From Cognatundibacterium oligocarboniphilum (GTDB lineage Bacteria > Pseudomonadota > Gammaproteobacteria > Burkholderiales > Burkholderiaceae_D): 64,000 bases of DNA. The position numbers and the translations under genes were made by a program. Shown piece by piece: positions 8,392 through 38,347 of this stretch. Under the pieces are notes generated by a model, which worked only from the letters and a program-made list of their open reading frames with translations, did not search any database and was not told the DNA's origin. The DNA lies in the NCBI RefSeq assembly GCF_013377855.1, contig NZ_JABXYJ010000003.1:62001-126000 (forward strand), read 5' to 3'. Position 1 is the stretch's first letter, and the number at the start of each line of letters is the position of its first letter.

Positions 8392-10403
8392 ACAGACAAA
8401 ACCGTATGCGCCTGCCACGCTTTTCCTTCCCTGTCCTGAGCCGCGATAAAGCCGATACCCTGCTGCTGCTCGCCGCCTGCATCAGCATCCTGCTACCGCA
8501 TTTCCAGCATGTCAGCTGGTGGGTGACCGCCAGTTGCACCGCCTTGCTGGGTTGGCGCACCTGGCTGACCCTGCAAGGTCTGCGTCTGCCGCCGTCCTGG
8601 GTGCTGCTGCCGGTGTCGGCACTGACCATGCTCGGGGTATATCTGCAATATCATTCTTTCTTCGGACGCGAAGTCGGCGTCACCATGCTGATGCTGCTGC
8701 TGACCAGCAAGCTGTTGGAAATGCATGCCAGACGGGATTTATTTGTGGTTCTGTTTCTGAGTTTTTTCCTGATGCTGACCAGTTATTTTTATCAGCAAAA
8801 CATTGGCAGCGCCTTCCAAAGTCTGACTGGTCTCAGCCTTTTATTGACAGCACAGCTGTCATTTCAATATACAGGTCTTTACCCGTCCCTCTGGCAACGA
8901 TTCAAACTCAGTCTCAGCATTCTGGGGCTGGCGATTCCGCTGACACTGGCAGCGTTCTTCCTGCTTCCAAGGGTACAGGGGCCGTTGTGGGGTTTGCCGG
9001 GAGATGCGCACAGCGGCCGTTCAGGCTTGTCGGAGAGCATGGCGCCGGGCGGCATCAGCGAGATGGTACTGTCTGAAGACATCGTTTTCCGCGTGCAATT
9101 CGGCGGTACAATTCCCAACAAATCCCTGCTGTACTGGCGTGGCATCGTGATGGATCAGTTTGACGGCAAAACCTGGACGCATAGTCCCGGTTCGCAACCG
9201 CTGACCTATTCACCGGCGAGTTATTCCGGCCCGGCCATCGCACAAACGATTCTGCTCGAACCACAGCGCCAGCGCTGGCTGTTTGCACTGGACCTGCCTG
9301 CCAGCCTGCCGCCACCGCAGACCGGTCTGACAGCCAGTCTGAATCCGCAGATGGAATTACGCAACAGCGAGAGCATCAGCCAGCGTTTGCGCTATGAAAT
9401 CACGTCTTATCCGCAATATCGTTACCAGACTGCCCTGACCGCTGAAGAACGGGAGCAGGCTCTGCAACTGCCTTCAGGATTCAATCCGCGAACCGCCAAT
9501 TTTGCAAGCACACTGCGTCAGCGTTACGTGGAAGATGCCGATCTGATCAATGCGATCTTGCAATTTTTCCGTCAGCAAGCATTCAGTTACACGCTGGAAC
9601 CACCATTACTCGGCAGGCAGACGATTGATGATTTTTTGTTTGAAAGCCGTGCCGGGTTCTGCGAGCACTACGCCAGCACCTTTACCAACATCATGCGCTT
9701 TGCCGGAATCCCGGCCCGCATCGTCACCGGCTACCAGGGTGGCAATATCAATACTGTGGACGGCTATTTTGAAGTCAGACAGTCCGATGCCCATGCCTGG
9801 AGCGAAGTCTGGCTTAAAGAACGGGGCTGGGTACGGGTAGATCCTACCGCCGCAGTCGCGCCCGAACGCGTCATGCAAAACCTGGACCGTGCGATTCCGA
9901 AACGCGGTTTCGCAGGATTGATGAACTTCGCCTTGTCCGGTAATTCCTGGAGCCAGAATCTACGTATGCGATGGGATGCGGTAAATAACTCCTGGAACCA
10001 GTGGGTACTGAACTACAACCACCAGACACAGCTCAACCTGTTCAAATCATTTGGTCTGAAAGAAGTAGACTGGGCGCAACTCAGTCTGATTTTTTTTATC
10101 GCCGGCAGCCTGATTCTGGCGCTGATTGCACTACCTTTAATGTGGCACAGCACGCCTCAGCCGCCATTGGATAGAGTATACTTTTTATTTTGTAAAAAAA
10201 TGGCAAGAAAACAGCTGCCAAAAATGCCGGAAGAAGGGCCCCTGCACTATCTGCAAAGATTGCGCCAAAAACTTCCTGCCAAAGAATTTCAGGCAACCGA
10301 GCAATTCCTGAATCTGTATATGGCTGCCAAATACGGAAAACACGATTTTTCTGAATTCAATCTGATCAGCCGGCTGAAGAAATTATTAGCCGCCTGCCCA
10401 TAA
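8388..10403 (+). CDS. TgpA-type transglutaminase-like membrane protein (DUF3488/DUF4129)
   Basis: 671 residues. The N-terminal 200 residues hold several membrane segments. A periplasmic transglutaminase-like core follows with Cys in GFCEHYAST, His in SDAHAWSEVW and Asp in RVDPTAAV, a complete catalytic triad. One further membrane segment at about 563-582 leads to a cytoplasmic C-terminal domain of the DUF4129 type. TgpA of Pseudomonas is an essential inner-membrane protein of this class. The gene closes the MoxR-DUF58 operon and overlaps the preceding gene by 4 bases. Confidence 0.92.
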   Translation: MNRQNRMRLPRFSFPVLSRDKADTLLLLAACISILLPHFQHVSWWVTASCTALLGWRTWLTLQGLRLPPSWVLLPVSALTMLGVYLQYHSFFGREVGVTMLMLLLTSKLLEMHARRDLFVVLFLSFFLMLTSYFYQQNIGSAFQSLTGLSLLLTAQLSFQYTGLYPSLWQRFKLSLSILGLAIPLTLAAFFLLPRVQGPLWGLPGDAHSGRSGLSESMAPGGISEMVLSEDIVFRVQFGGTIPNKSLLYWRGIVMDQFDGKTWTHSPGSQPLTYSPASYSGPAIAQTILLEPQRQRWLFALDLPASLPPPQTGLTASLNPQMELRNSESISQRLRYEITSYPQYRYQTALTAEEREQALQLPSGFNPRTANFASTLRQRYVEDADLINAILQFFRQQAFSYTLEPPLLGRQTIDDFLFESRAGFCEHYASTFTNIMRFAGIPARIVTGYQGGNINTVDGYFEVRQSDAHAWSEVWLKERGWVRVDPTAAVAPERVMQNLDRAIPKRGFAGLMNFALSGNSWSQNLRMRWDAVNNSWNQWVLNYNHQTQLNLFKSFGLKEVDWAQLSLIFFIAGSLILALIALPLMWHSTPQPPLDRVYFLFCKKMARKQLPKMPEEGPLHYLQRLRQKLPAKEFQATEQFLNLYMAAKYGKHDFSEFNLISRLKKLLAACP

Positions 10404-11550: not shown

Positions 11551-11904
11551 AAACGAGATATAAAACAAAAATTTTTTAACAATATGTTTCGTTTTCACTA
11601 ATTGATTTCAGGAACTTTTTGCTCAATACTGTTCATGCAAGCAATTGCACACATGCAAATAAAAGAATTAACTCACAACATTCTTTTTTTAAAACAAGTA
11701 TTGCGATTCATTATGAATTAAACTACAGTGATGTTATCTTATTGATATAAAAGCATTATCAGCATTTGATATGTCAATAGATTTAACAATGTTTTGCTAT
11801 TTTTCTCGTAAGCAAATTTCATTTTAAAGATACAATATTACCGTTTGATTAATTCTCATTGAAGCAATTAATTCAGCATCAATAGACTAGACAGCGAGGT
11901 AATT
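11551..11904. other. AT-rich intergenic region upstream of small HTH gene
   Basis: A 354-base gene-free stretch that is strongly AT-rich compared with its neighbours. It holds runs of T and A, several TTG/TATAAT-like words (for example TACAAT about 70 bases before the next gene) and a GAGGT ribosome site just before 11905. No ORF, RNA gene or strong terminator hairpin is apparent. It is most likely an extended promoter/regulatory region for the small HTH protein. Confidence 0.5.
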
Positions 11905-29943: not shown

Positions 29944-30059
29944 TAGCAGTTCACTGTTTGACGAAATAGTAATGTCATCAACCACGTGGTATCATCTGGT
30001 TTTATGCAGTCATTTGCGCAGTTTATCTGCGGTAATTCAATCTCAGTCGAGAGGATAAT

Positions 30060-30719
30060 ATGAAAAATTTAGTTAAACTCGTTATCGCAGCGTCCGCAGT
30101 GGCATCCTTTTCCGCTTCTGCACAACAAGACATCAAGGCAAGCACACCTACCAGCGGTTACGTACAAGACGGCCGTGGCGTGATTGCACGTGATCCATTC
30201 GGTCTGTGCTGGCGTACAGGTTACTGGACACCTGCTGACGCAGTGGCCGGTTGCGATGCTCCCCTGGTCAAAGAAGCTGCACCAGCTCCTGCGCCAGCTC
30301 CTGCACCAGTTGCAGCTCCGGCCCCAGTTAAGCCAGCAGCTCCTGTAGCACCGACTTCCGAAAAAGTGACTTTCGCTGCCAGCGCACTGTTCGACTTCGA
30401 CAAGTCTGTTCTGAAGCCAGAAGGCAAAGCACAACTGGATGACATGGCATCCAAGCTCAAAGCAATCAATCTGGAAGTTGTTATTGCTGTTGGTCATACT
30501 GACTCTGTCGGTACAGATACTTACAACCAAAAACTGTCTGTACGCCGTGCAGAAGCAGTTAAAGCATATCTGGTCAGCAAAGGCATCGATGCTAACCGTG
30601 TTTACACTGAAGGCAAGGGCAAAAAACAACCAGTTGCTGATAACAAAACTTCCGAAGGCCGTGCTAAAAACCGCCGCGTTGAAATCGAAGTGGTTGGTAC
30701 ACGCAACGTTGCTAAGTAA
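30060..30719 (+). CDS. OmpA-family outer envelope protein
   Basis: 219 residues: signal peptide (MKNLVKLVIAASAVASFSASA), the conserved motif LCWRTGYWTPADAVAGCDAPL shared with the preceding paralogue, an Ala-Pro linker (residues about 77-100), and a C-terminal OmpA domain (ALFDFDKSVLKPEGKAQLDD, AVGHTDSVGTDTYNQKLSVRRAEAV, NRRVEIEV). Codon choice is strongly biased (GTA/GTT, CTG, GCA), suggesting high expression, and the ribosome site GAGG is close to the ATG. A strong terminator follows. The role is anchoring or stabilising the envelope, by family. Confidence 0.92.
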   Translation: MKNLVKLVIAASAVASFSASAQQDIKASTPTSGYVQDGRGVIARDPFGLCWRTGYWTPADAVAGCDAPLVKEAAPAPAPAPAPVAAPAPVKPAAPVAPTSEKVTFAASALFDFDKSVLKPEGKAQLDDMASKLKAINLEVVIAVGHTDSVGTDTYNQKLSVRRAEAVKAYLVSKGIDANRVYTEGKGKKQPVADNKTSEGRAKNRRVEIEVVGTRNVAK

Positions 30720-30738
30720 TCAGATCTGATTGCTTACA

Positions 30739-30770
30739 CAAACCCCGCTGCGGCGGGGTTTCTTGTTTTT
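30739..30770 (+). terminator. Intrinsic terminator of the OmpA-family gene
   Basis: A GC-rich stem AAACCCCGC / GCGGGGTTT with a 4-base TGCG loop is followed by TCTTGTTTTT, 20 bases after the stop codon. Confidence 0.9.
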
Positions 30771-30869
30771 AGGTCATGCTTTGACACCGGCTAATGCCTC
30801 CGGCCAGTCCTTCGCCTACAATACGGTTTTACTCTTTTGCGTTCTACGCACTCTCCGATTAAATACATC

Positions 30870-31574
30870 ATGTCCACATTGAATGCAGATCCGGCAGAAA
30901 TCCAGAAATTCAGCGAACTGGCTCACCGCTGGTGGGATCCCAGCTCAGAATTCCGTCCCTTGCACGAAATTAATCCCCTACGACTTGAGTGGATCAATCA
31001 GCGCATCCCGTTGCATGGCAAAAGGGTGATCGATGTCGGCTGTGGCGGTGGTATTCTGGCTGAGTCTATGGCAAAAAAAGGCGCTACGGTAACCGGTATT
31101 GATTTATCGGAGAAAGCATTAAAAGTCGCTGATCTGCACAGCCTCGAATCAGGCGTGAATATCCGCTATCAAAAAATTTCCGCGGAAGAAATGGCGCAAG
31201 CGGAACCTGCCCAGTTTGATGTCGTCACTTGCATGGAAATGCTGGAGCACGTTCCCGATCCGGCCTCCGTGATCCGTGCCTGCGCGCAGATGGTCAAACC
31301 TGGCGGAAGCGTCTTTTTCTCAACACTCAACAGAAATCTGAAGTCTTACCTGTTCGCGGTTATCGGAGCAGAATACTTGCTGCAGTTATTACCAAAAGGA
31401 ACACATGACTACGCCAAATTCATCACTCCGGCCGAACTATCTCAGGACGTGCGTAATGCCGGCCTGGAATTGCAGACGATGAAAGGATTGAGCTATAACC
31501 CGCTCACCAAAATTTACTCACTGAACAACGACACCAGTGTGAACTATATGATTGCCTGCCAGCGCCCCGGCTGA
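30870..31574 (+). CDS. ubiG: Ubiquinone biosynthesis O-methyltransferase
   Basis: 234 residues from the ATG at 30870; an upstream in-frame TTG is rejected. The SAM-binding motif is [20 protein letters not shown]. The N-terminal [30 protein letters not shown] and the central [13 protein letters not shown] are UbiG hallmarks. It performs both O-methylations in ubiquinone synthesis. It lies directly upstream of gph, a common pairing. Confidence 0.95.
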
Positions 31575-31601
31575 TTATTGTCCACATTACTTTCTGTTTT
31601 T

Positions 31602-32279
31602 ATGTATATCCCACAAGCAATCTTATTCGATCTGGACGGCACACTGGCAGATACCGCACCAGATCTGGCTGCAGCAATCAATGCTATGCGCAGCAAAAGA
31701 AATCTTCCTGCGGTCAACTATCACAGCCTGCGGCCATTTGCCTCTGCCGGAGCAAGAGGATTGCTCGGCGCCGGTTTTAATATCAGCCAGGAAGATGAAA
31801 CTTACGAGCCAATGCGGATTGAATTTTTAAATCAGTACGAATCTGCGCTCGCAATCCATAGTCGTCTGTTCGATCATGTCCGGACGCTGCTCAGAGGGCT
31901 GGACGATCTGGGCATCAGCTGGGGCATTGTGACCAACAAAGCCATGCGCTTCACCAATCCGCTGATCCCATTGCTCGATTTACAAGAAGCGCGCTGCGTC
32001 GTATCCGGCGACACCACGCCGCATGCGAAACCACATCCGGCACCGCTGCTGGAAGCAGCAAGAAGATTAGGGGTACGGTCAGAATACTGCTGGTACATCG
32101 GCGATGACTTGCGCGACATACAGGCAGCAGAAGCGGCCGGTATGACCAGCGTTGCGGCGGCCTGGGGCTATTGTGGAGCAACCGAACCCAAACACTGGAA
32201 AGCCGATGCCATCATCGACAGCCCACTGGAATTGCTGGAACTGGTCCGAGCCAAACATTTACAGGCAGTAGGCTCTTGA
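31602..32279 (+). CDS. gph: Phosphoglycolate phosphatase (HAD family)
   Basis: 225 residues from the ATG at 31602. HAD motif I is ILFDLDGTLADTAPDL, motif II VTNK, motif III is the lysine in AKPHPAPLLEA, and motif IV GDDLRDIQAAEAAG. It removes phosphate from 2-phosphoglycolate, a DNA-repair by-product. It follows ubiG by 27 bases and ends just before the tmRNA promoter. Confidence 0.92.
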   Translation: MYIPQAILFDLDGTLADTAPDLAAAINAMRSKRNLPAVNYHSLRPFASAGARGLLGAGFNISQEDETYEPMRIEFLNQYESALAIHSRLFDHVRTLLRGLDDLGISWGIVTNKAMRFTNPLIPLLDLQEARCVVSGDTTPHAKPHPAPLLEAARRLGVRSEYCWYIGDDLRDIQAAEAAGMTSVAAAWGYCGATEPKHWKADAIIDSPLELLELVRAKHLQAVGS

Positions 32280-32282
32280 AAC

Positions 32283-32312
32283 TTTCGCTCCGATCCACAC
32301 ATAGGATATACT
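32283..32312 (+). promoter_or_regulatory. Probable tmRNA promoter
   Basis: A TATACT -10 box lies 11 bases before the mature tmRNA 5' end, with a weak TTTCGC -35 box 18 bases upstream. It begins right after the gph stop codon. Confidence 0.5.
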
Positions 32313-32323
32313 AACGAAACCTT

Positions 32324-32683
32324 GGGGTCGACCTGGTTTCGACAGGGGTTGCAAAGCAGCGCAGGGCATACCGAGGCCAGACTACCTCGTAAATACAATC
32401 TGAACTATATAACTGCAAACGATAACTCGTACGCATTAGCCGCTTAATACCGGTTAACCTTACACCACCTCTTCCCTAGGGTGGGCTGGCAACAGCAGTA
32501 AGGACATTCATAGGGAATCGTCCTGAACCGGGTTACTTGGCGCAGGATTAAACTTAAGGTAACTCGTCCTGCCGCAGCGTGTGCGTCCGCGTCGTCAGGA
32601 TTAAATCAAATGGCAGCACTAAGTATGTAGAACTGTCTGTAGAGTGCTTCTGGACGCGGGTTCGATTCCCGCCGACTCCACCA
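32324..32683 (+). ncRNA. ssrA: Transfer-messenger RNA, one-piece
   Basis: About 360 nt. The 5' end (GGGGTCGACCTGGTTTCGAC) and the 3' end (GGTTCGATTCCCGCCGACTC then CACCA) form the tRNA-like domain; the acceptor stem pairs over seven positions. The resume codon GCA is at 32415, and the tag frame to TAA at 32447 reads ANDNSYALAA, a typical betaproteobacterial degradation tag. It rescues stalled ribosomes with SmpB. The gene is not permuted. An intrinsic terminator follows. Confidence 0.97.
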
Positions 32684-32690
32684 ATATTTG

Positions 32691-32720
32691 AAGGCCAACC
32701 ACTCTCGGTTGGCCTTTTTT
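32691..32720 (+). terminator. Intrinsic terminator of ssrA
   Basis: A 10-bp stem AAGGCCAACC / GGTTGGCCTT with a 6-base loop and a run of six or more T, beginning 7 bases after the tmRNA CCA end. Confidence 0.92.
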
Positions 32721-32971
32721 CTTGCGGGTTCCCGCGTGGTCGCGGGGGTTCGTGCGGATTCCTGCGGACTGCACCAACTGGCCATCCGGCCCATTCAGGG
32801 CCACATTCGGCTCTCTCCTGGCCATTCTTCTCTCCGCCCCCACATCCCGCCAAAGGGCCGAAGTCCGCAAAGACCGGCGCATACGCCGTTATGAATCAAT
32901 GGGTTACGCGCGGACGATTCAAGCGGTTTGATTGCGTCATTGGTCGGGCCAAAGGGAATGGCTAGGCATTG
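32721..32971. other. GC-rich gene-free stretch at the left edge of the accessory segment
   Basis: Composition shifts sharply to GC-rich after the tmRNA terminator. The first 60 bases hold short GCGGG/CCCGC palindromes and repeated GCGGATTCC-like words. A frame ending at 32931 closes with RRIRRYESMGYARTIQAV, which may be a remnant of a foreign gene. No intact gene or recognisable transposon end was found on this side. Confidence 0.4.
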
Positions 32972-33001
32972 TTATCGTTCTTCGATATCGAAATGCGATA
33001 A
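32972..33001. promoter_or_regulatory. 30-bp palindromic operator candidate upstream of chrA
   Basis: A perfect 12-bp inner palindrome TTCGATATCGAA is flanked symmetrically by TTATCG and CGATAA. The whole 30-bp site matches its own complement at 24 positions. A TAATAT -10-like word overlaps its right end. It lies 30 bases before the leader ORF of chrA, so the PadR-type regulator downstream is the obvious candidate ligand. Confidence 0.65.
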
Positions 33002-33030
33002 TATGACAATCCACACCCAACGGAGCCGTC

Positions 33031-33102
33031 ATGAAACCGCTCATTCACGCACCGATCCCTCCACTGACCAATCAGCGATACAACCTTGGTCGCAAGCCAT
33101 GA
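33031..33102 (+). CDS. Short leader ORF translationally coupled to chrA
   Basis: 23 residues (MKPLIHAPIPP followed by LTNQRYNLGRKP). It starts at an ATG with a CGGAG ribosome site 5 bases upstream. Its TGA stop overlaps the chrA ATG by 4 bases (ATGA), in a different frame. chrA itself has no good ribosome site, so translation of the leader probably feeds chrA. No similarity is recognised; a regulatory leader peptide is the likeliest role. Confidence 0.55.
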   Translation: MKPLIHAPIPPLTNQRYNLGRKP

Positions 33103-34331
33103 CGACGATACGCCAAGCAACTCCGCTAGCCGCCGAGAGCCGCGATCAGAAGGAAAGCGTATGGGGCGTGTTTCTGGTGTTCCTGCGACTGGGCCTGACC
33201 TCCTTTGGCGGACCGATTGCACACCTCAGCTACTTCCGCGATGAGTTCGTCAATCGGCGCCGCTGGCTGAGCGAACGTAGCTATGCCGACCTGGTCGCCC
33301 TTTGCCAATTTCTGCCGGGGCCAGCCAGCAGCCAGGTCGGCATGGCCTTGGGCCTCTCGCGTCACGGTTACAGCGGAGCTTTCGCCGCATGGGCCGGGTT
33401 CACCCTGCCTTCGGCGATTGCCCTGATCCTCTTCGCTCTCGGTCTTTCAAGCCATGCCACCACGATCCCTGTGGGCGCGTTGCATGGCCTCAAGGTGGTG
33501 GCGGTCGCCGTGGTTGCGCAGGCGGTGTGGGGGATGGCAAAAAACCTATGCACGGACACAGCTCGGGTCACGATCATGGCGGTTGCAGCCTGCATCGCCC
33601 TGCTTGTGCCGTCTGCTTTTGGGCAGGTCGGCGTCATCGCTGCTGCTGGCGTCGCGGGACTTCTCCTGTTCAAGCCGGAACCGGCCAAAGACCATGAGCC
33701 GCTGCCCGTCACCGTCAGGCACCGTGCCGGTGTGCTATGGCTGACGTTGTTCTTCGGCCTGCTAGTCGGCCTGCCCATGCTGACCGCGCTGCTGCCTTAC
33801 CAAGTCATCGCAGACGTAAGCGCGTTCTTCCGTTCGGGGGCGCTGGTCTTTGGTGGCGGCCACGTCGTGCTGCCCCTGCTGCAAGCTGCTGTCGTGCCTC
33901 CGGGCTGGGTCAGCAATGACGCCTTCCTCGCGGGCTACGGCGTAGCGCAGGCCGTGCCCGGTCCGCTGTTCACCTTCGCGGCCTTCTTGGGAGCTTCGAT
34001 GAACGTCGCCCCTTCGGGGTGGATCGGCGGCATGGTTTGCCTGTTGGCGATCTTCGCGCCGTCCTTCCTGTTGGTAACGGGGGCCTTGCCATTCTGGGAG
34101 CGGCTGCGCCGCAACGTGCGCACGCAAGCAGCACTGATGGGCGTCAACGCAGCAGTGGTCGGTCTGTTGTTGGCCGCGCTCTATCACCCGGTATGGACAA
34201 GCGCCATCCATGCGCCGCGAGACTTCTGCATCGCGGTCATCGCTTTCGTCGCCCTGATGTTCTGGAAGCTGCCGCCTTGGCTCGTCGTGGTTGGCTGCGG
34301 TGTGGCAGGTTGGCTGGTAAGCCTCGTTTGA
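33099..34331 (+). CDS. chrA: Chromate transporter, two-domain CHR family
   Basis: 410 residues from the ATG at 33099 (MTTIRQATPLAAESRD); the open frame extends further up without support. Two homologous halves each carry the CHR signature: FLRLGLTSFGGPIAHLSYFRDEF and FLPGPASSQVG in the first, SGALVFGGGHVVLPLL and GVAQAVPGPLFTFAAFLGA in the second. About 10 membrane segments are likely. It exports chromate using the membrane potential. GC-rich codon use differs from the surrounding genome. A padR gene follows by 10 bases, an arrangement known from mobile, integron-associated chrA loci. Confidence 0.93.
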   Translation: MTTIRQATPLAAESRDQKESVWGVFLVFLRLGLTSFGGPIAHLSYFRDEFVNRRRWLSERSYADLVALCQFLPGPASSQVGMALGLSRHGYSGAFAAWAGFTLPSAIALILFALGLSSHATTIPVGALHGLKVVAVAVVAQAVWGMAKNLCTDTARVTIMAVAACIALLVPSAFGQVGVIAAAGVAGLLLFKPEPAKDHEPLPVTVRHRAGVLWLTLFFGLLVGLPMLTALLPYQVIADVSAFFRSGALVFGGGHVVLPLLQAAVVPPGWVSNDAFLAGYGVAQAVPGPLFTFAAFLGASMNVAPSGWIGGMVCLLAIFAPSFLLVTGALPFWERLRRNVRTQAALMGVNAAVVGLLLAALYHPVWTSAIHAPRDFCIAVIAFVALMFWKLPPWLVVVGCGVAGWLVSLV

Positions 34332-34341
34332 TCGTCGAGCG

Positions 34342-34647
34342 ATGACCGACAAAGATCTCTATGGTGGGCTGATCCGCCTACACATCCTGCATCACGCAGG
34401 CGAAGGCCCAGTGTTCGGACTGGGCATCATCGAAGAACTGCGCCACCACGGCTATGAATTGAGCGCCGGAACGCTATACCCCATGTTGCACGGCATGGAA
34501 AAGAAGGGCTATCTCACCTCTCGTCATGAGCGCACAGGTCGGCGAGACCGACGGATATATGAAATCACTGTCCAAGGGCGGGTCGCCTTGGCCGCCGCAA
34601 AGACTAAGGTGCGTGAGCTTTTTGGGGAACTGATCGAGGGCAAATGA
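34342..34647 (+). CDS. padR: PadR-family transcriptional regulator of chrA
   Basis: 101 residues forming a single winged-helix PadR domain (GPVFGLGIIEELRHHGYELSAGTLYPMLHGMEKKGYL, then a wing with RRDRRIYEITVQG). It lacks the C-terminal extension of long PadR proteins. It lies 10 bases after chrA in the same GC-rich block. PadR proteins usually repress the operon they belong to and release on a chemical signal; chromate response is inferred from context. Its stop is 12 bases from the inner repeat of a transposon end. Confidence 0.9.
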   Translation: MTDKDLYGGLIRLHILHHAGEGPVFGLGIIEELRHHGYELSAGTLYPMLHGMEKKGYLTSRHERTGRRDRRIYEITVQGRVALAAAKTKVRELFGELIEGK

Positions 34648-34659
34648 CGGCCTCACGTG

Positions 34660-34709
34660 TAGTGCAGACGAGTCCTGACATTTCATGCATTCGCCCTCTG
34701 AAAACGACA
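34660..34709 (-). mobile_element. Terminal end of a Tn402/Tn5053-family transposon
   Basis: On the minus strand the outer 25 bases begin TGTCGTTTTCAGA and resemble the 25-bp terminal repeat IRi of class 1 integrons and Tn402, as recalled, at about 19 of 25 positions. After a 5-base gap a second repeat reads GTCAGGACTCGTCTGCACTA, matching the inner 19-bp transposase-binding repeat with the same spacing. The element points left, so chrA-padR lies inside it. No matching left end and no tni genes are visible, so only a remnant is present. Confidence 0.65.
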
Positions 34710-34724
34710 GGAGACCGCCAGTAA

Positions 34725-34966
34725 CTACTTGAGTCTGGCGTGCTGCTCATCCCAAAGTGCGGGCGGATCGACCACCAAATCGAACAGCGTGACGTGGTTC
34801 GGCATCGCGTCGTCGAGGATGGCGCCAGCGTGGTCAGGTTGACCATTCGGCTGATGTAGCTGTTGTCGACTCCTTCGGCGGCGATCTCCTTGAGGGACAC
34901 CACCCATCCACATACCCTTACGCTTGCTGGCGGCGATCTTGTCGCGAATGCGTTCGCCGGTGTGGG
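34725..34966 (-). pseudogene. Remnant of a large serine recombinase
   Basis: On the minus strand, starting near 34961, TGERIRDKIAASKRKGMWMGG is a hallmark segment of large serine recombinases. It is then joined to a C-terminal piece in another frame (LKEIAAEGVDNSYISRMVNL), and after a further frame change to ILDDAMPNHVTLFDL and PPALWDEQHARLK, ending at 34725. The catalytic domain and the middle are missing. At least one internal deletion and one frameshift make this a dead gene. It begins 16 bases from the transposon end. Confidence 0.75.
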
Positions 34967-34969
34967 CTC

Positions 34970-35674
34970 ACCGCTTTTCCGTCATTACGCCTTTGCTATA
35001 TATCTACTTGGCGCACAACTTATCGCCCAGCTTTGTTTCAACTTTGAAGCTACCCGTTTTGTGGTGAAATGGGCGAAACTTGCGAACGCCGTGATTCTGC
35101 TGCCAGGTATATGCGTTATCAACGGATAACATCTATCAGCAAAACCATTTTTTTGTGAAACTGGAAGAAACCGGTGGAACCGGAAAAATGCCTGTTGCGA
35201 TGAATGAGATGGCAAGCGAAGCGCTGACGCAGCATATAAATGAATTTTATATTTTCCCTGAATGGGGATTTATGATGCCTTTTTGCATTCCTCACCGGAA
35301 ATCAGTTTGCATATGCAGTTGATTTTAATGCGTTCACAAAAAATCCTGACAGGACAAACTTTAAACGCGTTAACGTCCTCTATTGGAATCAGAAAGATAC
35401 TGAAAAATACCGGGTGCAATTGACTACACTAGGCGCATTGAATACGGAAATCAAAACTTATCTGAGAAAAGACGGACAACCCGCATTCTATTTGCTCTCA
35501 GCCACCTTGCCTTGAAGTTGATACGGTGCCGGCTCGCTATAAACGAACAGCTACAAGAAGGAGAGGTGGTGCGCGAATAAACTGTCCGGAAAAATCCCGG
35601 AACAGTTCATCAATATCGGAGGCGTTATTCAGTATCAGTAAGGTGATGTGCCAGTCTCACTGATCGAAAAGGCT
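34970..35674. other. AT-richer stretch with decayed coding sequence
   Basis: About 700 bases with no intact gene. Three protein-like stretches lie in different plus-strand frames: 35088-35290 (contains ALSTDNIYQQNHFFVKLEET and EALTQHINEFYIFPEWGF); 35276-35515 (LFAFLTGNQFAYAVDFNAFT, reminiscent of a signal-peptide end, then KRVNVLYWNQKDTEKYRVQL); and 35590-35640 (KLSGKIPEQFINIGGVIQYQ, like the last strand of an outer-membrane protein). No start codon serves the second. Together they look like eroded remains of one or more envelope genes. Confidence 0.45.
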
Positions 35675-36580
35675 TTATGCTGCAGCCAAAGGTTGACCGG
35701 CATTTGCCTGCAGATAATCCAGAAATCCTTTGGCAACCGGCGACAGCCGTTTTCCCTGCAAATGCACCGCAAACCAGTTTTCCTGCAATGGAAAATCCAG
35801 TACATCCAGTATCGCCAGTGCATGATTTTTCAGGTTTGTATTGAGCGCATGACGGGATAACACGCTCAATCCCATATCACCGGCCACTGCTTGTTTGATA
35901 GCTTCGTTACTACCCAGCTCCATCCGGACCTGAGGTAAAAAATCACGGCTGGCAAAATACCAGTCACAGGCAAGCCGGGTGCCGGAGCCTGTTTCGCGCA
36001 GGATAAATCGCTCCCCGCAGAGTTTTTCCAGTCGCAATCCCTGTTGCCCGGCAAAGGGATGTGTCTGCGATGCGATCATGACCAGCGGATTGGGCATCAA
36101 AGTGTGCCTCACGATATCCATGTCGTCCGGCGGTATCGACATAATGCAGAAATCATCACGATTTTCTCTCAGGCGTTGCAAAATTACTTCACGATTCTGT
36201 ACCTCCAGTGCGATATCCACTTCAGGATACGTCTTACTGAAAGCAGCCAGCAGACAAGGCATGAAATATTTGGCGGTACCGACAACGGCGATGCTCAGAT
36301 GCCCGCAGGTCAGTCCCTTCATTCCGGCAATACACTGCTCATAGGCACGCCATTCATCTTCCATCACCTTTGCTGTTCTGGCCAACTCATCCCCGGCAGA
36401 AGTCAGGTACAAACGCTTTCCGATCACTTCATACAACGGCAAACCCACTTCGTCGCTGAGTTCGCGCATTTGCATGGATACCGTTGGCTGTGTCACCTGA
36501 AAATGACGCGCAACACCGCTGATACTGCGCTGATTTGCCAGTTCAAGGAATAAGCGTAATTGTCGGAAGGTTACATTCAT
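35675..36580 (-). CDS. LysR-family transcriptional regulator
   Basis: 301 residues from the ATG at 36580 (MNVTFRQLRLFLELANQRS); an upstream in-frame start at 36673 is rejected. The N-terminal winged HTH is SISGVARHFQVTQPTVSMQMRELSDEVG. The effector domain resembles the CbbR/CysB-like branch (GHLSIAVVGTAKYFMPCLLAAF, GSGTRLACDWYF). No obvious divergent partner gene is present: the 272-base upstream spacer leads to a DUF218 gene. The target is unknown. Confidence 0.88.
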   Translation of the reverse strand: MNVTFRQLRLFLELANQRSISGVARHFQVTQPTVSMQMRELSDEVGLPLYEVIGKRLYLTSAGDELARTAKVMEDEWRAYEQCIAGMKGLTCGHLSIAVVGTAKYFMPCLLAAFSKTYPEVDIALEVQNREVILQRLRENRDDFCIMSIPPDDMDIVRHTLMPNPLVMIASQTHPFAGQQGLRLEKLCGERFILRETGSGTRLACDWYFASRDFLPQVRMELGSNEAIKQAVAGDMGLSVLSRHALNTNLKNHALAILDVLDFPLQENWFAVHLQGKRLSPVAKGFLDYLQANAGQPLAAA

Positions 36581-36852
36581 AAATCGGCCTGAGATGGCAT
36601 GGGTGGCATGATGCCAATGAGACTGCTGACGATCGTTCAACGGCAGGTATCCGTCAGAATTACACTCCGGCAATTACATGGGAATCCCCTTCCTGATGCC
36701 AGCACATTGTCGCCGCTCAGTACATCTGTGACCTTGACATCCCTCAAATGAAGCCTAGCTAATTCGGCAACCGTTCACAAAATTAAGCGGACAGCATCAA
36801 CCGTGCATAAGTCTTTGCAATCTGTGCTCAGGAAGAAACCTCATTTACAATC

Positions 36853-37695
36853 ATGCCCATTTCAATCAGATCAAGACGCCTCATGCCTCTCGCAGACAGC
36901 CATCAACGTGCGCTCAGGAAGATTCAACCCTTCATCCTGTTGCTGAGCGGTTTTCTGCTAACGGGTGATGCCATCCTGGTGAGCATATCGGAGCCTGTCA
37001 GTTTCGGCGTTCTTTTTCCAGCGGCGCTGGGAATTGCGCTCGGCTATTGCGGCTGGCGCTGGCATACCTTGCAACAATGGCGCCGGCGCAGCGTCACCCA
37101 TGCCCGGCTATGGTTATGGGGCTGGACGCTGTTCATGCTCTGGTTACTGAGTCTGGCGGTATTTTCCTGTGTCATACCATACCGTGAAGAAACTCTGGCG
37201 GTCGCATCACAACCGGCGCCTGTGGCAATCATCATTCTCGGTGCCGGTCCCAAGGACTGCACACCGTCCGCGGTATTAACAGAAAGGCTGAACAAAGGAT
37301 TGCAGGCAGCGCATATCTTTCCGGCAGCCGCAATCGTGGTCAGTGGTGGCAAGCTGCGGCATCATAACTGCACAGAAGCACAGATTATGAGCGACTATCT
37401 GCGCACAAAAGGTGTGGCGCCATCACGGATTCTGACGGAAGACCGCAGTACCAGCACCTATGAAAATTTCAAATTCAGCCTGCCGGTTTTATCTCAGCAC
37501 AGAATTTCCCCTGAGTCTGTCATGCTCATTGTCAGCAGTGATTTTCACGTATTACGCGCCAGCTACATTGCCCATCGGGCAGGTTTCCCGAATACCCGGC
37601 TGGCTGGCGCAGAAACACCGCTGCTAGTCCGTTACAATGCCCGATTAAGAGAATATTTTGCCTTTATCAGCGGATTCATCTTGCGGGAATATTAA
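36853..37695 (+). CDS. DUF218 (YdcF/ElyC-type) membrane protein
   Basis: 280 residues. Three hydrophobic segments in the first 115 residues (about 27-46, 50-67 and 92-112) precede a periplasmic DUF218 domain. That domain has the usual motifs: IIILGAGPKD, VSGGK, RILTEDRSTSTYENF and VSSDFHVLRASYIAHRAGF. ElyC and SanA proteins of this fold take part in envelope integrity; the reaction is unproven. Confidence 0.85.
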   Translation: MPISIRSRRLMPLADSHQRALRKIQPFILLLSGFLLTGDAILVSISEPVSFGVLFPAALGIALGYCGWRWHTLQQWRRRSVTHARLWLWGWTLFMLWLLSLAVFSCVIPYREETLAVASQPAPVAIIILGAGPKDCTPSAVLTERLNKGLQAAHIFPAAAIVVSGGKLRHHNCTEAQIMSDYLRTKGVAPSRILTEDRSTSTYENFKFSLPVLSQHRISPESVMLIVSSDFHVLRASYIAHRAGFPNTRLAGAETPLLVRYNARLREYFAFISGFILREY

Positions 37696-37814
37696 AATTT
37701 TCATCTTTCGGTAGTCATCAGATATTCGTTTTTCTTTGGCACATCAGTTAATCTGCCCGCACAGAAAATTTTCTTTATGACGACGATCATCGAACAGCAT
37801 CAGAGACTGAAATC

Positions 37815-38347
37815 ATGACAACCCAAGGTTTCCATCCGCTTTCCGCCATCGTGCACTGGGTGATGTTTGTGCTCATTGCCGTCGGACTGGCCACCATTGA
37901 AATTCGTAGCGATATCCCGAAAGGTGATCTGCTGCGCGACACGCTGAGAAACTGGCATATGCTGGCAGGACAGCTGGTGTTTTATGTTTGTTGGTCAGGA
38001 TTGCTGCCAGAATCCGTTATCCGGCTCCACCGGCCTTGCCTGCGCCACGCTGGCAGACAGGCAGTGCCCATCTGGTGCACGGCGTGCTGTATCTGCTGAT
38101 GCTGGCCATTCCTGTAACCGGGGTGCTGTTTTATCAGGCCGGAGGACGGGAGGTCAGTTTCTTCGGAATGGTGTTACCCACCTTGATTGCCCCTAATCCG
38201 GATCTGAAACAAAACATCAGAGAATTTCATGAATTGATGGGCAATGCCGTCTATGTCGTAGTCGGCATCCATATTCTGGGAGTGCTATATCACCAGTTCA
38301 TACAGAAGGACGGCACACTGCTGCGCATGCTGCCCTGGAAAAAATAA
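37815..38347 (+). pseudogene. Cytochrome b561, frameshifted
   Basis: The first frame (37815 to about 37990) gives FHPLSAIVHWVMFVLIAVGL and NWHMLAGQLVF, the first heme-binding helix and the start of the second. The sense continues in the +2 frame with LVRIAARIRYPAPP, AHLVHGVLYLLMLAIPVTGV and ELMGNAVYVVVGIHILGVLYHQF to 38347. The change falls near 37986-37990 in GTTTGTTGG; one missing T would restore a single protein of about 178 residues. All heme histidines survive, so this is a recent mutation or a sequencing error. Confidence 0.8.

Follow-up and report, generated by a model that had tools for sequence, protein, structure and literature searches.

The 64,000-nucleotide stretch of Cognatundibacterium oligocarboniphilum DNA analysed here (the window) very probably contains a one-ended relic of a res-site hunter of the Tn5053/Tn402 family, namely the cargo-side end (IRi) of a transposon with a chromate-resistance operon in its cargo. 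The complete form of such an element would run IRi - padR - chrA - further cargo - tniR - tniQ - tniB - tniA - IRt, set within a res-like site between the two copies of a 5-bp duplication. One copy would have ended up next to an ssrA-linked serine-recombinase gene, and everything to the left of a palindrome preceding chrA (most of the cargo, the tni genes, IRt and the left flank) would have been lost, most simply by deletion, leaving the palindrome, a remnant ORF of 23 aa, open chrA and padR genes, and IRi (Table 1). Because most of the cargo, the tni genes and IRt are missing, the remaining piece should be unable to move by itself.

Table 1. Features of the chrA-padR insert and its surroundings, in window positions
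Feature	Position	Strand	Evidence
ssrA (tmRNA) gene, landmark beside the insert	32324..32683	+	Rfam RF00023, 216 bits; ARAGORN
Stretch 3' of ssrA common to G029, ~75-77% identity	32684..32947		Alignment
Left junction of the insert, without IRt	32948..32971		G029 homology ends at 32947; cargo similarity starts at ~32972
Operator-like palindrome	32972..33001	+	L135 and G696 have a similar palindrome ahead of the operon
23-aa ORF overlapping the chrA start	33031..33102	+	C-terminus matches that of the cytochrome-like gene preceding chrA in L135 and G696
chrA, chromate efflux transporter, 410 aa	33099..34331	+	TIGR00937, 348 bits (cut-off 171.7); PF02417; no internal stop
padR, PadR-family regulator, 101 aa	34342..34647	+	PF03551; no internal stop
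Inner 19-bp repeat of IRi	34661..34679	-	Comparison with R751 and random sequences
Outer 25-bp terminal repeat (IRi), tip at 34709	34685..34709	-	R751 comparison; random sequences; G640/G696 alignment
Decayed remnant of serine recombinase and HTH ORF	34710..34960	-	Pieces match G011
Decayed 3' part and downstream region of a gene open in G029 (541 aa)	34961..35660	+	G029 alignment

The transposon end behind padR

Window positions 34661-34709 carry, on the minus strand, a Tn402/Tn5053-type IRi made up of a 25-bp outer repeat, a 5-bp spacer and a 19-bp inner repeat, which read TGTCGTTTTCAGAGGGCGAATGCAT, GAAAT and GTCAGGACTCGTCTGCACT from 34709 to 34661; the IRi of R751 (Tn402) reads TGTCGTTTTCAGAAGACGGCTGCAC, TGAAC and GTCAGAAGCCGACTGCACT. 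Both have the 25-5-19 layout, and they differ at 5 of the 25 outer positions and at 12 of all 49, as against a minimum of 17 mismatches (mean 21.6) for the best ungapped match to the R751 IRi in 100 random 64-kb sequences (order-3 Markov). Two repeats serve to recognise Tn5053/Tn402 res-site hunters, a 25-bp terminal repeat of the TGTCRTTTTCAGAAG type, present here at one end, and a 19-bp inner repeat at the cargo end, present here and arranged as in R751. In this family the inner repeat serves as a TniA site. The original prediction, of a Tn402/Tn5053-type end directly behind chrA-padR with 25-bp and inner 19-bp repeats and the 5-base spacing of the integron IRi, is borne out by the R751 alignment, whose identity is better than chance; the distance from padR, predicted as 12 bases, is corrected to 13 (counted from the padR end at 34647).

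The repeat is a true Tn402/Tn5053-type end, and we consider the probability of a chance resemblance to be negligible. The first 13 bases of the outer repeat, taken alone and with up to 3 mismatches allowed, do occur at chance level (19 matches in the window against a shuffle mean of 14.9, with 15 of 100 shuffles reaching as many), but the comparison over all 49 bases, the breaking off of homology at the tip in independent contexts, and the presence of both ends and a duplication in the relative described below all speak against chance. The exact 13-base match occurs only once in the window, in the repeat at 34709.

Homology with other copies ends at the IRi tip or no more than 2 bases from it, indicating that the tip is a real boundary. 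It stops exactly at the tip in two genomes from the family-wide search (G640 and G696), and the matches to Enterobacter hormaechei and Citrobacter plasmids (L001 and L002) run 2 and 1 bases past it. Plasmid pBCEN1232 of Burkholderia cenocepacia (L070) bears a relic like that of the window, with padR and the repeat 87% identical (297/342) and a match that runs exactly to the final base of the repeat, the tip being situated 163 bp upstream of a gene annotated as a recombinase; unlike the window, it matches in only a 231-base piece of chrA, and neither an IRt (up to 6 mismatches) nor TniA, TniB or TniQ was found in 18 kb of this plasmid. A plasmid search gave matches to 2267 records, and 11 of the 40 listed (H1-H11) extend through the repeat, the others stopping earlier.

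The ChrA encoded just inside this end has two PF02417 (CHR) stretches and scores above the TIGR00937 cut-off, which places it among the two-CHR-domain transporters. Pairwise dN/dS against L135 and G696 is 0.10 and 0.11 for chrA and 0.08 and 0.06 for padR, values that cover the whole divergence and are no proof of selection in the window lineage after truncation. Because their reading frames are open and constrained, chrA and padR most likely form a still working PadR-controlled chromate efflux unit. Sequences related to the window palindrome precede chrA in L001, L106 and L096, and the palindrome is a possible PadR site; the 23-aa ORF may be the product of an in-frame internal deletion of a cytochrome-like gene.

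The complete relative in G696

The form that the window element may once have had is illustrated by a genome of the same family and another genus. When 294 genomes of the family were searched with padR and the repeat, 13 matched, the window's own included; in G640 and G696 the match (88%) covers padR and continues through the tip, and the others match in padR only, in the repeat only or in short pieces. The G696 element extends over 11,156 bp from IRi (L195:1223) to IRt (L195:12378) and includes tniABQR. Its gene order from IRi is padR, a PAP2-like gene, chrA, a 162-aa cytochrome-like gene, then methyltransferase-like, MFS-like, MBL-fold-like, DsrE-like and ArsR-rhodanese-like genes, followed by tniR, tniQ, tniB and tniA (the cargo names except chrA, padR and tni are readings of the ORFs, as is the Tn3-type transposase beside the element). 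A perfect 5-bp duplication, CAGGT, lies on both sides, and the flanks, when joined, contain a Tn21-type res-like motif, the element having on one side a gene of resolvase type (38% to TniR) and on the other an ORF of 997 aa resembling a Tn3-type transposase. We take this motif to be that of Tn21 res; here it stands for the sequence common to G696, L001, L071 and L108.

The window shares with this transposon the IRi with its inner repeat, padR, chrA, a similar palindrome and the C-terminus of the cytochrome-like protein. DNA identity is 86.7% over chrA and the 43 bases before it and 88.1% over padR and IRi, and the proteins are 89.7% (ChrA) and 93.1% (PadR) identical. Unlike the window, G696 has IRt, tniABQR, the 5-bp duplication and the res-like site, and in its cargo chrA and padR are separated by a PAP2-like gene, the cytochrome-like gene is full-length and five further ORFs precede tniR; left of the window palindrome no match to the G696 element was found. 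Given that the PAP2-like gene of G696 and L135 is absent from the window, the latter would descend from a relative of G696 rather than from that exact form. The short gap between chrA and padR in the window resembles that of L001, and because of this and of the absent PAP2-like gene the window seems to keep the older chrA-padR arrangement. G640 has the same cargo side as G696, with TniB down to a 73-residue match and neither TniA nor IRt up to the contig end.

The ssrA locus and the second end

No matching left end, IRt or other, was found between ssrA and the repeat using three 25-mer queries at up to 9 mismatches, and tblastn gave no match to TniA, TniB or TniQ in window positions 30001-38000, in agreement with the earlier remark that no tni genes and no second end are visible. 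The absences from the 34-contig draft genome are softer: TniA gave no match in a search without a control, and TniQ gave two matches, both below the family cut-off, in a search for which 9 of 14 control genomes matched, only below the cut-off, so that it has no good positive control. A search of the whole genome with the repeat pattern returned 24 hits, 23 of them with 2-3 mismatches, against 18 for the reversed-pattern control, and these hits were set aside because the count is near that of the control. Lacking a partner end, the window IRi is expected to be inert, and with a single end remaining, insertion of the window copy by transposition, together with its duplication, cannot be demonstrated.

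The insert is near-complete only in its own genome among the 43 genus genomes searched (its own included). Four of these have any match, the three others being G020, in which part of chrA is matched at 67%, and G022 and G011, with short matches; a search of 369 class-wide genomes with padR and IRi likewise gave four, the own genome and three in which only short parts of padR matched. In GC content the cassette (61.2%) differs from the window as a whole (53.7%), in keeping with the transposon reading. The near relative G029 has both flanks (to 32947 and from 34961 in window positions) around ~5.5 kb of other sequence, and its 541-aa gene at the right-hand flank encodes what appears, from reading of the ORF, to be a membrane-like protein. 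The comparison with relatives lacking the insert, proposed with the original prediction, shows the insert in near-complete form in one of the 43 genus genomes searched and another stretch at the same ssrA locus in G029.

On the right, a pair of ORFs that is open in G011, one for a serine recombinase and one with an HTH, is matched by pieces of 34710-34960, and the window tip is therefore adjacent to a decayed recombinase. It is located 15 bases past the 3' end of the recombinase-linked ORF, and not within the res site that would precede a resolvase gene, a point against the relic reading. A plasmid search for distantly related DNA with the recombinase remnant gave one short match, and G011 accounts better for the remnant. 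The ssrA gene seems to be a busy spot in the genus (window 32324-32683, L076): the G011 pair adjoins it, and several relatives have short repeats of the ssrA 3' end kilobases to tens of kilobases downstream.

These surroundings bear on whether the element jumped in this genome at all, since the fragment might have arrived already broken inside an ssrA-linked serine-recombinase island that has since decayed. The position of the tip against the recombinase remnant, the open relative beside ssrA in G011, the similar GC contents of remnant and cassette (60.6% and 61.2%) and the occurrence of a near-complete insert in 1 of 43 genus genomes are all consistent with such an arrival. It is nevertheless rather doubtful, as what precedes chrA on the left (32684-32947) is like the flank in G029 and unlike the G011 island, and island and fragment are found together in none of the 43 genus genomes, save for the remnant in the window itself.

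A different course of events would be the movement of a tni-less mini-transposon, with two ends and cargo only, by tni functions supplied in trans, the left end being lost later. Two-ended relatives without tniABQ do exist, one of them with chrA-padR (L106, with IRt at 9666 and IRi at 11610) and two with perfect 5-bp duplications (L072 and L194), and tni-defective Tn6606 elements moved with tni in trans are described in the accessible text of PMC7765201. With no IRt in the window, and with tni genes present in G696 as its closest complete relative, we consider this course distinctly unlikely, and favour the loss of the tni side from a complete transposon.

Chromate operons in integrons and in transposons

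Related chrA loci were collected as the best 80 of 252 places. Within these 80, an inward IRi-type repeat (up to 6 mismatches) lies behind chrA in five (L098, L100, L106, L130 and L110), with local alignments in agreement; L130 has the outer repeat and a broken padR, and L110 has the outer repeat and no inner one. Four others (L101, L103, L104 and L108) have an opposite-facing IRt behind padR at the same threshold. The gap from the padR stop to the inner repeat is 13-16 bases in the copies counted, with both types of ChrA. For the trees, 101 loci and the window segment were used, 98 having a ChrA match of sufficient length; 13 locus ids were listed as duplicates or near-duplicates, and the large ChrA tree kept 86 rows. 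Smaller trees comprised 38 ChrA sequences (from the rows that have padR, and from L130 in addition) and 39 PadR sequences, with two places omitted as duplicates, and G696 is absent from the trees.

In the 86-row tree, the window ChrA groups with L135, L092 and L121 (100/99), L135 being the closest among the tree rows (92%); the order within this group is weak (87/44, 88/58). The ChrA proteins of IRi-bearing E. hormaechei, Citrobacter, Pseudomonas, Castellaniella, Parapusillimonas and Crenobacter copies belong to another branch of 44 rows (95/96), and integron ChrA forms a third (96/98). The PadR tree is poorly resolved (4 of 26 inner branches starred) and nothing is drawn from it. Because the window ChrA and the other IRi-bearing ChrA fall in separate parts of the tree, at least two ChrA lineages sit inside IRi.

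The original prediction had linked the window end to the chromate genes of class 1 integrons, as a perhaps ancestral or degenerate copy. The IRi layout is indeed that of R751 (Tn402), and chrA-padR is found in class 1 integrons too. However, directly inside the window IRi are padR and chrA, both identified by profiles, and not intI1; and the integron chrA region of pETN48 (L071), which like the window has chrA and then padR, belongs to the separate integron ChrA clade, and its padR is followed not by an IRi but by res-like sequence cut by IRt. As far as the accessible text goes, the integron chrA region has been derived from a Tn21-like transposon in pCNB1 (PMC6737455), and an IRLchrA-chrA-orf98 structure is described for integrons (PMC5034289). 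The ChrA tree and the sequence behind padR in pETN48 led us to reject a class 1 integron origin, and an integron remnant is a highly improbable description of the window. The copy is degenerate, as had been suggested, but the idea of an ancestral copy is not supported, a better parent being a chromate-carrying Tn5053-type transposon as in G696. The pETN48 junction (L071:5484-5526), where padR runs into Tn21-type res-like sequence cut by IRt, is in itself a clue to how chrA-padR arrived there.

The E. hormaechei plasmid pEh25_3 has a chromate transposon (L001:451-7553) of the order IRt-tniABQR-TauE-chrA-padR-IRi, whose PadR is 88% identical to that of the window and whose ChrA, unlike that of the window, is of the other clade (77% identical); its IRt lies in sequence resembling what we take to be Tn21 res, and its 5-bp flanks do not match. 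Chromate operons may have entered res-site hunters at least twice, from different ChrA lineages, as an E. hormaechei/Pseudomonas/Castellaniella type and as a window/G696/pBCEN1232 type; the short and similar distance from padR to the inner repeat in both would imply either a preserved padR-IRi module with an exchangeable chrA or a benefit of having the regulator at the transposon end, a suggestion that we make tentatively. The G696 cargo is almost completely present in L135 (6446 aligned bases, 86%), and no inverted repeat (up to 6 mismatches) and no TniA, TniB or TniQ were found in 21 kb there; the cargo therefore persists also without ends, a state that speaks against a simple one-way history.

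Several further copies with two ends were observed. The Castellaniella element (L106:9666-11610) contains part of TauE, chrA and padR without tni genes, and its flanks, GCGCA and GCGCT, are alike at 4 of 5 positions. On a Pseudomonas aeruginosa plasmid (L072:6003-7481), IRi and IRt with no tniABQ annotated between them enclose a recombinase gene and a RelB/YafQ-type pair, and GAGCC on both sides forms a perfect 5-bp duplication; the element is situated 100 bp upstream of a second recombinase gene. At L194:4939-6538, 1.6 kb lies between two Tn402-type ends, includes a match to a TniR-like recombinase (38%) and is flanked by a perfect 5-bp duplication, CCGGC, and at L078:4883-5170 IRt and IRi bound 288 bp in the manner of a miniature element, with unlike 5-bp flanks.

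Tn402 (R751) and Tn5053 have 25-bp ends and tniABQR, with the 19-bp inner repeat observed in R751; the cargo of Tn402 is an integron, unlike the chromate cargo of the window, and that of Tn5053 is the mer operon (PMC8248536; PMC7765201). In PMC7765201, Tn5053 and Tn402 are described as res-site hunters with 25-bp ends and the order tniABQ-res-tniR, and fewer than 10 distinctive members of the Tn5053 family are recognised, all with a captured mer module; mer-defective Tn6606 elements and tni-defective two-ended elements with 5-bp repeats are also reported there, and Tn5045, an integron-containing chromate-resistance transposon, is treated as a Tn1013-like carrier. Elsewhere, Tn5053 and Tn5058 are described with 5-bp repeats near a resolvase gene (PMC3960245), Tn6048 is placed in the Tn5053 family (PMC6210171) and a truncated Tn5053 with mer is described (PMC8248536). 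In the literature that we searched, available in part and including few subscription papers, we met neither a chromate-carrying Tn5053-type transposon nor a name for the G696 element.

Together, the window and G696 point to a chromate-carrying branch of the Tn5053 group, and the complete example in G696, with its ends, transposition genes, duplication and res-like target, opens this branch to direct study. The comparison also separates two look-alike histories, that of the chromate genes of class 1 integrons, with a Tn21-type source, and that of chromate genes inside Tn5053-type transposons. How a chromate cargo can persist in a chromosome once its transposon is broken is seen in the window copy.
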